From Pelagibacteraceae bacterium AG-313-A04 (GTDB lineage Bacteria; Pseudomonadota; Alphaproteobacteria; Pelagibacterales; Pelagibacteraceae): a stretch of 64,000 nucleotides of DNA. The DNA lies in assembly GCA_003284275.1 (NCBI GenBank), contig QBVU01000001.1, positions 62,001 through 126,000 of the forward strand, read 5' to 3'. The notes beneath the pieces were generated by a model. It saw only the letters and a list, made by a program, of their open reading frames with translations, had not been told where the DNA came from and made no database searches. Below, piece after piece: positions 11,755 through 14,769 of this stretch. How positions within the stretch are numbered: position 1 is the stretch's first letter; each line of letters starts with the position of its first letter. A program made the position numbers and the translations under genes.

Positions 11755-13128
11755 ATGGATATATATAAAAAACAAACGTTCGCTGAAACTTTCTCAGTTT
11801 ATTTTGATCGCAGAATGATAAAGATTTTATTACTTGGGGCAATCAGTGGTTTTCCTTGGGTCATTATTGGAAGTAGTCTAAGTCTATGGTTGAAAGAGGA
11901 TGGTTTAAGTAGAAGCACTATAGGATGGGCTGGATTAATTTTTGCAGTTTATGCTTTCAATTATTTATGGGCCCCAATTATAGATAGAATTAGAATTCCT
12001 TGGTTAACAAATAAAATTGGTCACAGACGAGGATGGATTGTTTTAATGCAATCTATCATCCTTATAAGTTTAATATTATGGAGTGTAATTAATCCCACTA
12101 CAAATTTAGCGTTAGTGGTAAGTGTTGGTCTGATAATTGCAATTGCTTCAGCCACACAAGATATAACTATTGATGCATTAAGAATTGAACAAATTGGAGA
12201 GAATGAAGGAAAATCTATGCAAGCTGGTGCTGCTATGGCAGTTGTTGGTTGGTGGACTGGATATAAGTTAGGTGGTGTAGTTGCTCTTACTTCAGCAGAA
12301 TTCTTTCAAAATCTTGGGTTTGAAAATTATTGGCAAATAACTTTTTTAGTTCTAGGAGCTGTAATTATAGCCTGTAACATTGGTTTAATGTTTGTAAACG
12401 AAGCTTTACAAACGGATAGAAGCGAGTCTCAAAAAAAAACAGATAAAATGATTGAAGATAAATTAGGTACTTCTAACCTTTTAACAAAAACTATCGCATG
12501 GCTTACTGGAACGGTTGCAGGTCCTATTATAAGCTTCTTTAAAAAAAATGGTTTAAATATTGCTTTAGCAATATTAGCTTTTATTTTTCTTTTTAAAATC
12601 GGGGAGGCTTTTCTTGGTAGAATGTCTGTAATTTTTTATAAGGAAATAGGTTTTACAAAGACAGATATAGCATTGTATTCAAAAGGCCTTGGGTGGTTAA
12701 CGACAGTAATTTTTACACTGCTAGGTGGTTTGTTCGCTATTAGATCTGGTGTGATAAAAGCTATGTTTGTTTCAGGAATACTAATGGCCTTTACTAATTT
12801 GCTTTTTTCTTTGTTAGCATGGTCAGGAAAATCGGAATTATTATTTGCTATTGCAGTTATATTTGATGATATGGCAGCAGCATTTGCAACAGTGGCTTTT
12901 GTTGCTTTCATTTCGATGTTAGTTGATAGAACTTATACAGCAACTCAATATGCTTTGTTAGCTTCAATTGGTACAGCGGGACGAACAACTTTAGCGGCAT
13001 CATCAGGGGCTTTGGTAGATTGGTTAAATGGAGACTGGGGTATTTTTTTTATAATTACAGCTTTAATGGTGATACCGTCTCTTATATTTCTTTACATGAT
13101 AAGACATAAACTTAATTTAAATGACTAA
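11755..13128 (+). CDS. AmpG-like MFS permease
   Basis: A 12-helix major facilitator protein of 457 aa. The LWAPIIDRIR and ASATQDITIDALRIE motifs are the hallmarks of the AmpG family, which imports muropeptides (anhydro-muropeptides) for cell-wall recycling in the inner membrane. It follows trkH by 3 bases and overlaps the NlpC/P60 hydrolase gene by 8 bases. An importer of wall fragments next to a wall peptidase makes murein recycling a reasonable reading, though AmpG relatives with other substrates exist. Confidence 0.85.
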   Translation: MDIYKKQTFAETFSVYFDRRMIKILLLGAISGFPWVIIGSSLSLWLKEDGLSRSTIGWAGLIFAVYAFNYLWAPIIDRIRIPWLTNKIGHRRGWIVLMQSIILISLILWSVINPTTNLALVVSVGLIIAIASATQDITIDALRIEQIGENEGKSMQAGAAMAVVGWWTGYKLGGVVALTSAEFFQNLGFENYWQITFLVLGAVIIACNIGLMFVNEALQTDRSESQKKTDKMIEDKLGTSNLLTKTIAWLTGTVAGPIISFFKKNGLNIALAILAFIFLFKIGEAFLGRMSVIFYKEIGFTKTDIALYSKGLGWLTTVIFTLLGGLFAIRSGVIKAMFVSGILMAFTNLLFSLLAWSGKSELLFAIAVIFDDMAAAFATVAFVAFISMLVDRTYTATQYALLASIGTAGRTTLAASSGALVDWLNGDWGIFFIITALMVIPSLIFLYMIRHKLNLND

Positions 13129-13858
13129 ATATTTTACAAATAATTTCTCAGTAATAAATCTTTATAAAAAACCTTCAATTAAATCTGAAATTGTTACACA
13201 GATGATTTATGGAGATAGCTTTTCTATATCTAAAAAATCAAAAAAATGGCTCAAAATAAAAATTAAAGAAGATAATTATAAAGGTTATATAATTAATAAA
13301 AAATATTCTAATTTTTTTAAGCCTACTCATAAAGTTAATACTTTAAAAGCAAAAATTTTTAAATTTCCCAATAAAATTAAAAAAAATGAAATTTCTTTTG
13401 CTTCTAAAATTAAAGTGATTGAAAAAAATTCGAAATATTTAAAGTTTCAAAATGGTTGGATTAAAAAGACTGATGTGAAACCTATTTCATATAAAGAAAA
13501 AAATCCTTTTAAAAAAATAACCTCTTTTAAAAATATTAAATATAAATGGGGTGGCAAATCTTTCAAAGGAATTGATTGCTCAGCACTTATTCAAATTTTT
13601 TTAAATTTCAATAATAAATTTTGTCCAAGAGATGCTAAAGATCAAGTAAAGTACTTCAAAAAAAACATAAAATTAAAAAATATAAAAAAAAATGATATTA
13701 TCTATTGGAAGGGTCACGTTGCTGTAGCCTTGTCTAATAAAAAATTGATTCATGCTTACGGACCTATGAGAAAGACTGTGATCATGGATATTAATCAAAC
13801 GATTAAAAGAATTGAGCGTACTGCTAAATTAAAAGTAATTGGAATTAAAAGGCTATAA
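13121..13858 (+). CDS. NlpC/P60 family peptidase with SH3-like N-terminus
   Basis: A 245-residue cysteine peptidase of the NlpC/P60 family, which cuts peptide bonds in peptidoglycan stems. Two SH3-like strands-rich modules occupy about residues 5-115 (YGDSFSISKKSKKWLKIK is typical bacterial SH3). The catalytic domain begins near 130: nucleophile Cys153 in GIDCSALIQ, the His in WKGHVAVAL and a third polar residue in LIHAYG. No signal peptide is visible, so it may act on imported fragments in the cytoplasm, as dipeptidyl-peptidase VI-type enzymes do, which fits its 8-base overlap with the AmpG-like importer. Confidence 0.88.
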   Translation: MTKYFTNNFSVINLYKKPSIKSEIVTQMIYGDSFSISKKSKKWLKIKIKEDNYKGYIINKKYSNFFKPTHKVNTLKAKIFKFPNKIKKNEISFASKIKVIEKNSKYLKFQNGWIKKTDVKPISYKEKNPFKKITSFKNIKYKWGGKSFKGIDCSALIQIFLNFNNKFCPRDAKDQVKYFKKNIKLKNIKKNDIIYWKGHVAVALSNKKLIHAYGPMRKTVIMDINQTIKRIERTAKLKVIGIKRL

Positions 13859-13861
13859 ATA

Positions 13862-13897
13862 GCAAAGGCAGCTTCAGTCTCCCTCCACTGCCCTTAA
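13862..13897. other. GC-rich patch with possible RNA stem in a convergent spacer
   Basis: Between the NlpC gene and the convergent 78-aa gene is a short stretch (GGCAG...CTGCC with a 16-base loop) that is clearly richer in G+C than the surrounding AT-rich spacer. It can fold on either strand, but no T-run follows, so it is a poor intrinsic terminator. It may be part of a small RNA or an mRNA 3' end. Little more can be said from sequence. Confidence 0.3.
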
Positions 13898-13961
13898 AGA
13901 GAATTTATCTGATTCGTAAAATTTATTTAAGACTCTTTTAGGTTGTATGTGGATATTAAAA

Positions 13962-14198
13962 TTACTTTAATATTTTTCTATAAGCAAAAATTACAGCAAA
14001 AACTATTATTAAAGCTGCAATGCCTTGCTCGCCTAAAGCATTAAGTAAATTAATTAAATTTTTTGTTACCTGAGAACCAAAAAAAGCTACATTCGGTCCA
14101 AATACAATCTCTGCTATTACTGAAACGGCTAATAATAATATCCCTAATTCTAAAAATTTATTTAAATATTTTGTTAATGTTGAGACCCAATTAAGCAT
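13962..14198 (-). CDS. Two-helix small membrane protein, 78 aa (paralogue B)
   Basis: An acceptable start ATG at 14198 is preceded by an AAGGAAAAAAATT ribosome site. The 78 residues hold two hydrophobic helices (about 16-34 and 55-73) joined by a loop FGPNVAFFGSQVTKNLINLL. The loop and second helix match the 71-aa neighbour: G-x-NV-x-F-x-G, then N-x-I/I-N-L and LG-x-x-GI-x-x-LI. The two genes are thus paralogues. No known family comes to mind; the shape recalls holin-like or small pore-forming proteins, but that is only shape. Two RNA hairpins separate it from its upstream paralogue, implying different expression levels. Confidence 0.75.
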   Translation of the reverse strand: MLNWVSTLTKYLNKFLELGILLLAVSVIAEIVFGPNVAFFGSQVTKNLINLLNALGEQGIAALIIVFAVIFAYRKILK

Positions 14199-14219
14199 AA
14201 TTTTTTTCCTTTTTTTTAA

Positions 14220-14245
14220 CCGCCCTAATTATAAACTTAGGGCGG
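14220..14245 (-). promoter_or_regulatory. GC-rich hairpin in the leader of the 78-aa gene
   Basis: A perfect 9-bp inverted repeat, CCGCCCTAA / TTAGGGCGG, with an 8-base loop. On the minus-strand RNA it sits about 22 bases upstream of the start codon of the 78-aa gene and is followed by A-rich sequence, not T-rich, so it is unlikely to terminate transcription by itself. It could stabilise the 3' end of the upstream message or shape the leader of the next. Confidence 0.6.
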
Positions 14246-14252
14246 CTATATA

Positions 14253-14280
14253 AAAAGCTAATTCGAGGGAAGTAGCTTTT
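14253..14280 (-). terminator. Intrinsic terminator or attenuator after the 71-aa gene
   Basis: A perfect 8-bp inverted repeat AAAAGCTA / TAGCTTTT with a 12-base loop lies 8 bases after the stop of the 71-aa gene. On the minus strand it is followed by T then ATATAG, so the U-run is short (TTTTT). It probably gives partial termination, leaving a reduced message for the 78-aa gene. A second hairpin follows at 14220-14245. Confidence 0.5.
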
Positions 14281-14288
14281 GTTGTTTA

Positions 14289-14504
14289 TTACTTAAACAA
14301 GTTTAGGATGATAATAGCTGCGATTAATCCAACTATACCTGCATCACCTAAAGATTGTACTAAACTAATAATGTTACCAGCTATTTCACCTACAAATGGA
14401 ACGTTTCCACCTAATAGACTTACAGCGATACCTAACGCAAGTAATGAAACCACTACTTTTGTTAAGCTGTCAAACATTGAAGTTAATCCTGAGATTGCTT
14501 TCAT
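14289..14504 (-). CDS. Two-helix small membrane protein, 71 aa (paralogue A)
   Basis: The ORF track starts at 14546, but ATG 14504 (MKAISGLTSMFDSL) is preceded by a very strong ribosome binding site, AAGGGGGATAAC, so I take that start; it gives 71 aa. Two hydrophobic segments (about 14-31 and 50-69) flank the loop LGGNVPFVGEIAGNIISLVQSLG. The pattern is shared with the 78-aa product next door. Gly/Ala/Ile-rich helices and the strong ribosome site suggest an abundant membrane peptide. I do not recognise the family. It is the first gene of the pair; tRNA-Ser lies upstream on the same strand about 175 bases away. Confidence 0.78.
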   Translation of the reverse strand: MKAISGLTSMFDSLTKVVVSLLALGIAVSLLGGNVPFVGEIAGNIISLVQSLGDAGIVGLIAAIIILNLFK

Positions 14505-14679
14505 GTTATCCCCCTTTTTTATTAATAAAAAATCAAAACGAATCATATTCGCTTTGAATTACGAACTTTTATCATTTCGTGAGTCTACCTACACTAGAAA
14601 AGGAACCTAACGACTCATAATGAACTCGTTTTATAAGCAAATGAATCTTTAAATGTGTGCAATTTGAGTCTTATTTAAA

Positions 14680-14769
14680 TGGCGGAGAGAGAGGGATTCG
14701 AACCCTCGAAACGGTTTCCCGTTTACACGCTTTCCAAGCGTGCGCCTTCAACCACTCGGCCACCTCTCC
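14680..14769 (-). tRNA. tRNA-Ser (GGA)
   Basis: Read on the minus strand, the acceptor GGAGAGG (5') pairs with TCTCTCC (3'), with one G-T pair; the D arm is TGGCCGAGTGGTTGAAGGC; the anticodon loop CTTGGAAAG gives anticodon GGA (Ser, UCC/UCU). A long variable arm (GTAAACGGGAAACCGTTTC) typical of tRNA-Ser is present, and the T arm is GAGGGTTCGAATCCCTC. The 3' CCA is encoded (14680-14682). It begins 13 bases after the stop of the glycosyltransferase gene, so it may be transcribed from that operon. Confidence 0.96.

Follow-up and report, generated by a model that had tools for sequence, protein, structure and literature searches.

A family of small two-helix membrane proteins in uncultured bacteria and marine phages, occurring in SAR11 as a tandem pair with intercistronic stem-loops: a candidate two-subunit holin-type device

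Two paralogous membrane proteins

In the window (the whole stretch of 64,000 nucleotides that was analysed), two small genes lie in tandem on the minus strand. Gene A (14289-14504), whose start region is AAGGGGGATAACATG, encodes a two-helix membrane protein of 71 amino acids (MKAISGLTSMFDSLTKVV...NLFK), and gene B (13962-14198, minus strand) encodes a diverged paralogue of 78 amino acids (MLNWVSTLTKYLNK...RKILK). Gene A is preceded by a strong Shine-Dalgarno region, AAGGGGGATAAC-ATG (14505-14514, minus strand), which was read directly and bears out the very strong ribosome site attributed to the first protein in a preliminary description of this DNA. Both open reading frames carry the shared motifs claimed for them, GGNVPFVG and LGDAGIVGLI in A having GPNVAFFG and LGEQGIAALI as counterparts in B, and the two proteins are 35% identical across 63 amino acids (BLASTP, E=1e-8), which supports their proposed origin by duplication.

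Between relatives, both genes show a dN of 0.07-0.21 where dS is ∼0.8 or more; in the comparison with the relative L006, dN and dS were 0.085 and 1.02 for A and 0.073 and 1.15 for B. Because dN/dS is well below 1, A and B are judged from these substitution patterns to be coding genes that are both under purifying selection. The alignment of A relatives contains nine invariant or nearly invariant columns (L52, G53, G56, V58, G59, L60, G32, F37 and N44), and one glycine and one asparagine are kept in the alignment of B. AlphaFold2 models place helices at residues 2-30 and 41-70 of A (pLDDT 86.6) and at residues 2-33 and 39-77 of B (pLDDT 79.6), in agreement with the helix-loop-helix layout described earlier. 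On average, the N-terminus carries 2.1 positive charges, the turn 0.2 and the C-terminus 1.9; with the positive charge concentrated at the two ends, these values point to an N-in/C-in topology for the two-helix proteins. Being short and predicted to have two membrane helices with both ends cytoplasmic (AlphaFold2, hydropathy and charge pattern), the proteins resemble class II holins.

Searches for known families and structures

No Pfam, NCBIfam or PADLOC model and no PDB entry matched A or B, and neither gave a PHROG match above noise. There was no significant holin model in Pfam, NCBIfam or PHROGs, no Pfam or NCBIfam match to the CidA/LrgA family and no match to the anti-phage defence models of PADLOC, and Foldseek searches of the A and B models against PDB and BFVD returned no structure match. 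Judged from these searches, the family is an unnamed one, so far without a match in the libraries used, as had been stated at the outset. A probable reason why standard libraries miss it is that its proteins are short and hydrophobic and prone to low-complexity masking.

Models of T4SS pilin type gave sub-threshold values (TrbC, 0.0088; DUF2976, 0.0098; TIGR03745, 0.11), the top TrbC score being 16.7 bits against a curated cut-off of 27.9. Together with an excess of A, which would fit a major subunit, these scores speak for a static structure, such as a pilin-like, ring or membrane-organising assembly, with A as its major and B as its minor subunit. We consider this very unlikely, as all scores remain below the curated cut-offs, the DUF2976 and TrbC matches fall on different members of the family, and the proteins have no signal peptide; moreover, there are no conserved partner genes, and T4SS genes were not recognised in the open reading frame lists of 16 loci. 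With sub-threshold scores and no support from the neighbours, the T4SS pilin idea was rejected.

Three other candidates were also set aside. The tape-measure likeness of A (PHROG, 0.41) was regarded as noise because the family concerned does not belong to the 25 that most of the 78 members matched. ATP synthase subunit c was dismissed because no Asp/Glu is conserved in helix 2 of A, and the light-harvesting alpha/beta proteins because no His occurs among the invariant or near-invariant columns of A and B.

Hairpins between A and B

The preliminary description had placed two tandem hairpins between the genes, the first with a T-run. Both exist in the predicted fold of the minus strand: the first (14253-14280) pairs AAAAGCTA with TAGCTTTT and is kept in the near relatives L002, L003 and L005, and the second (14217-14248) has a 12-bp stem that includes CCGCCCTAA/TTAGGGCGG and an 8-nt loop. 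The RNA between A and B has a predicted folding energy of -29 kcal/mol (z = -5.9), and 0 of 200 shuffles were as good. However, the T-run after the first hairpin is weak, consisting only of TTTTTATA, A's stand directly 3' of the second, and the terminator scan of the window lists neither. The only terminator-like site at the locus is a hairpin in the 5' leader of A (14533-14557, minus strand; terminator scan), which is followed by a T-run just upstream of the ribosome site and shows paired changes in the near relatives L002, L007 and L008.

Two tandem hairpins were seen only in the window's SAR11 family, one strong hairpin being the rule elsewhere. A strong stem-loop was present in 30 of the 39 gaps between A and B, compared with 9 of 97 gaps between co-directional genes that were drawn from the same loci as controls (Fisher P ∼2e-14, a value that is indicative since the rows are related). 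The nine A-B gaps in which it is missing comprise six of the Reyranella/Acetobacteraceae type, two from Rhodospirillales and one from Paracoccaceae. Among A-B pairs, the position corresponding to the second hairpin is conserved and its sequence has turned over: the stems are CACTTCCCATG/CATGGGAAGTG in SAR11 family f2, CCGCCCTAA/TTAGGGCGG in the window and of GGTGGGG/CCCCACC types in Rhizobiales. The 8 nt on the 3' side of the stem contain 2.3 T in A-B pairs compared with 4.6 after lone A genes, whose stems are mostly terminator-like, whereas those of the pairs mostly have no U-tract. A stem-loop between genes that is not followed by a terminator tract is also a trait of puf-like operons.

Ordinary punctuation could account for such hairpins, which would then be weak terminators or chance structures of no dosage meaning, with A and B as redundant paralogues; the partial T-run at the first hairpin and the strong stems found in 9 of the 97 control gaps agree with this. 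Yet the position of the stem is kept across families and classes as its sequence turns over, and T-tracts are mostly missing in pairs and present after lone A genes, so that we hold this explanation to be quite improbable. The occurrence of a stem-loop at the same place in 30 of 39 gaps, with unrelated sequences and few U-tracts, and the terminator-like nature of the stems after lone A genes indicate that the hairpin belongs to the pair, and this supports the idea of unequal dosage. An intercistronic stem-loop in the Rhodobacter puf mRNA sets unequal mRNA stability (Chen 1988, cited in PMC5927463). By analogy with the puf and other operons (PMC5927463), A would be made in larger amounts than B. 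The high expression of A and the tuned expression of B suggested earlier thus gain a non-terminator stem-loop conserved in Alpha- and Betaproteobacteria, and the unequal expression itself is what we infer from it.

The pair in SAR11 and its insertion site

Searches recovered A and B as a tandem pair in nearly all loci found in the SAR11 order, and relatives in Alpha- and Betaproteobacteria, Planctomycetes and viral contigs. Two SAR11 genomes gave one match only, G129 with a completeness of 61% and G140 with one of 53%.

Within the window's genus, the pair occurs patchily and is absent from the nlpC/tRNA-Ser site in most relatives. Comparison with empty sites delimits an inserted cassette of ∼0.7 kb (approximately 13960-14676), located between conserved sequence and the tRNA end and containing only the leader, A, the hairpins and B. 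It is flanked by tRNA-Ser(GGA) (14680-14769, minus strand) and by nlpC (13121-13858, plus strand), whose product we take from its sequence motifs to have an NlpC/P60-like hydrolase fold. Of the 30 loci read, many had an empty gap, with ∼102-112 nt from the nlpC stop to tRNA-Ser in G130, G002, G006, G021 and others. Other cargo occupies this gap (13859-14679 in the window) in L236, L237 and L253, which identifies it as an insertion hotspot. A long open reading frame adjoins A in L213, and in L218 an extra one lies between the tRNA and A. The NlpC neighbour was rejected as a functional partner of A-B, because nlpC belongs to the core genes of the genus (53 of 61 genomes) and the pair is inserted beside it.

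In family f2, most genomes have A-B, located 84-85 nt upstream of genes for an ArgT/HisJ-type amino-acid binding protein and permeases. An amidinotransferase-like gene is found near A-B in L216, L217 and L208, that is, in f2 and in genome G074 of family f1, and possibly represents an old neighbourhood shared by the two SAR11 families. The position in f2 raises the alternative that A-B is a small-solute channel or transporter accessory instead of a lysis-type pore, which in f2 would serve the adjacent amino-acid ABC transporter. Retention of the pair in most of these streamlined genomes agrees with such a role, for which PftAB offers a precedent of a holin-like pair that can be a transporter (PMC5626966). 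However, the neighbours are unrelated in other lineages and the f1 pair stands alone at the tRNA site, and we regard the alternative as unlikely.

Relatives in other bacteria and origin of the pair

With a profile of A and B, relatives were detected in 35 of 336 other alphaproteobacterial genomes; among 398 further genomes taken from across the phylum, only one gave a match, and a weak one. Scanning of named genomes yielded 181 relatives in Alpha- and Betaproteobacteria and Planctomycetes, of which the best 80 were fetched. To judge from their titles, all 80 (L125-L204) are MAG, single-cell or uncultured entries, and none is apparently a cultured isolate; the family seems to be concentrated in uncultured lineages. 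In 39 of these best 80 of the 181 loci, nine of them found by a looser B search, A is followed on the same strand by B or by a diverged two-helix B. One MAG titled Gammaproteobacteria (L133:7430-8240) carries two near-identical A genes, which are separated by ∼330 nt that include a strong hairpin.

The A tree contains one supported clade (100/99) that includes SAR11, and B is present in 31 of its 32 rows, which fits one old origin of the A-B pair. SAR11 B sits on a long branch, and the Reyranella/Acetobacteraceae type, which has no hairpin, seems to have arisen by a duplication of its own. A occurs alone in Planctomycetes and some marine Alphaproteobacteria. Single-gene relatives with unrelated loops had been named as an argument against the pair; lone A genes do exist outside the pair-bearing clade, but the loops are related, with a glycine and an asparagine conserved in A and B. 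No conserved neighbour gene was found around the bacterial A-B pair, and lysis genes are not beside it.

Homologues of A in viral contigs

The first viral relatives of A were found in L122, L123 and L124; 60 loci of the L124 type were found afterwards, and a broad profile detected 325 contigs. The viral contigs are of metagenomic origin. None of those scanned yielded B, and most viral A sequences group together, apart from the bacterial ones (A tree, 92/97). The usual gene order of T4-like contigs runs from ThyX through a Hydrolase_2 cell-wall hydrolase, a small gene and A to a porin-like gene. Hydrolase_2 lies upstream of A on the same strand in 50 of the 54 T4-like loci that have it, a link that counts about once because these loci represent one lineage. 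The small porin-like outer-membrane gene is located 13-26 nt 3' of A and is of one type in 38 loci and of a second type in 12 (examples are L302, L304, L315 and similar contigs).

Lambda-type phages keep their lysis genes directly before the terminase. In another viral group, A has a functionally unassigned membrane protein on one side and the large terminase on the other, and it directly precedes the terminase in 27 viral loci. Moreover, in L123 and L285, genes in the vicinity of A are matched by models of Rz-like spanins (E=6e-7 and 0.003). Adjacency to endolysin or spanin genes is thus seen for some phage homologues of A and not for bacterial A-B. The two-component pore put forward in the preliminary description draws indirect support from these hydrolase, spanin and terminase neighbourhoods, from which we infer the function.

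In a myovirus-like contig (L122:3283-3510), A lies shortly downstream of a baseplate-hub gene and just before a 967-amino-acid open reading frame that could be a tape measure. The viral-collection contig L432 was rejected as a true viral A, as its first 170 bases match SAR11 gene A (80% identity) and are followed by phage-like genes, so that it looks like an assembly chimera. Searches of deposited phages by tblastn with six queries (five at E up to 1) returned nothing, probably owing to low-complexity masking and not to absence, and there is no A in the sequence of phage HTVC008M.

Carriage by phages, the patchy presence of the pair at a tRNA insertion hotspot in the window's genus and the porin-like gene 13-26 nt after A in T4-like contigs, which could mask receptors, would also be compatible with superinfection exclusion. 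A-B would then act at the inner membrane to keep phage DNA out, in the manner of T4 Imm or of P22 SieA, the latter being a small inner-membrane blocker (PMC10883804); phages would carry A against rivals and bacteria would keep A-B as a defence. We judge this to be rather improbable, given that no PADLOC model matches, that the pair is common in f2 and that single-gene A is conserved in Planctomycetes across long times; the placement of A near hydrolase and spanin genes is better explained by lysis.

A proposed two-subunit holin-type oligomer

The reading that we prefer, still tentatively and with less than even confidence, is that A and B together build a small inner-membrane oligomer of holin type, with A as the major and B as the tuning subunit. 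It builds on the family, its pairing, the purifying selection, the hairpin conservation, the topology signals and the phage homologues. Each protein would form a two-helix hairpin with both ends cytoplasmic and a short periplasmic turn, and the helices would pack through the conserved glycines G-x-x-G-x-x-G of the second helix. A would be the abundant subunit, owing to its strong ribosome site and to an mRNA bracketed by the 5' hairpin and the 3' stem-loop. B would be made from the same transcript in a smaller amount, because the stem-loop after A is proposed to protect the A part of the mRNA and/or to stop transcription partly. Copies of A would assemble to form a channel or a lesion in the membrane, and B would presumably join this assembly and set when or whether it opens, in an antiholin-like manner. 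The pore function, for which the phage neighbourhoods and the topology argue, is the weakest step.

Several observations speak against a holin-type oligomer: bacterial A-B is not beside lysis genes and has no conserved neighbour, B is absent from the scanned viral contigs, nine A-B loci have no hairpin, and no PDB or BFVD structure matches. Moreover, the pair is common in f2, where it precedes an amino-acid transporter, an odd position for a killing device. A broader scenario, which we find somewhat doubtful, is that of an unrecognised holin-type family common to uncultured bacteria and marine phages, in which one old bacterial lineage made a two-subunit, non-lytic device of cellular function whose A:B ratio is set by a stem-loop that keeps its place and changes its sequence completely.

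If this is true, very abundant ocean bacteria and their viruses have in common a small membrane-pore family that standard libraries have missed, and A-B offers a clean example from nature of an RNA hairpin between two genes that sets the dosage of their subunits. A would also be a candidate holin for marine T4-like phages, among which a CsgG pore has been proposed as the pinholin of phage Melnitz (PMC9004378).

Comparison with known systems

Several known systems resemble A-B in part, and each differs from it. TatA/TatB are tandem paralogous small membrane proteins of which one is in excess. However, they have one membrane helix and an amphipathic helix and work with a TatC partner, and no Tat model matched A or B. 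VirB2/TrbC pilins have two helices and a turn and gave the weak sub-threshold matches, whereas A and B have no signal peptide and no T4SS genes and score below the curated cut-offs. T4 Imm and P22 SieA are, like A, small inner-membrane proteins that are phage- or prophage-borne (SieA: PMC10883804), but no family match links them to A or B, for which exclusion is a candidate role.

Class II holins and antiholins have the two helices, the 70-80 amino acids, the basic C-terminus and the small turn of A and B, and the phage homologues of A are placed as their genes are, close to Rz-like spanins or a cell-wall hydrolase, or immediately in front of the terminase. This likeness is drawn from sequence features, and, unlike class II holins, A and B match no holin model and bacterial A-B has no endolysin beside it. 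CidA/LrgA-type proteins are larger than A and B. No family model links CidA/LrgA or PftAB to A or B; like these systems, A-B is a two-gene operon of holin-like membrane proteins, and it may, as PftAB does, act as one hetero-oligomeric complex of a holin/antiholin-like pair (PMC5626966). The pufBA-LMX operon of Rhodobacter differs in its pigment genes, none of which lie near A-B, and in the bacteriochlorophyll-binding His, which is not conserved in A and B; like A-B, it has small membrane proteins and an intercistronic stem-loop (Chen 1988, cited in PMC5927463).
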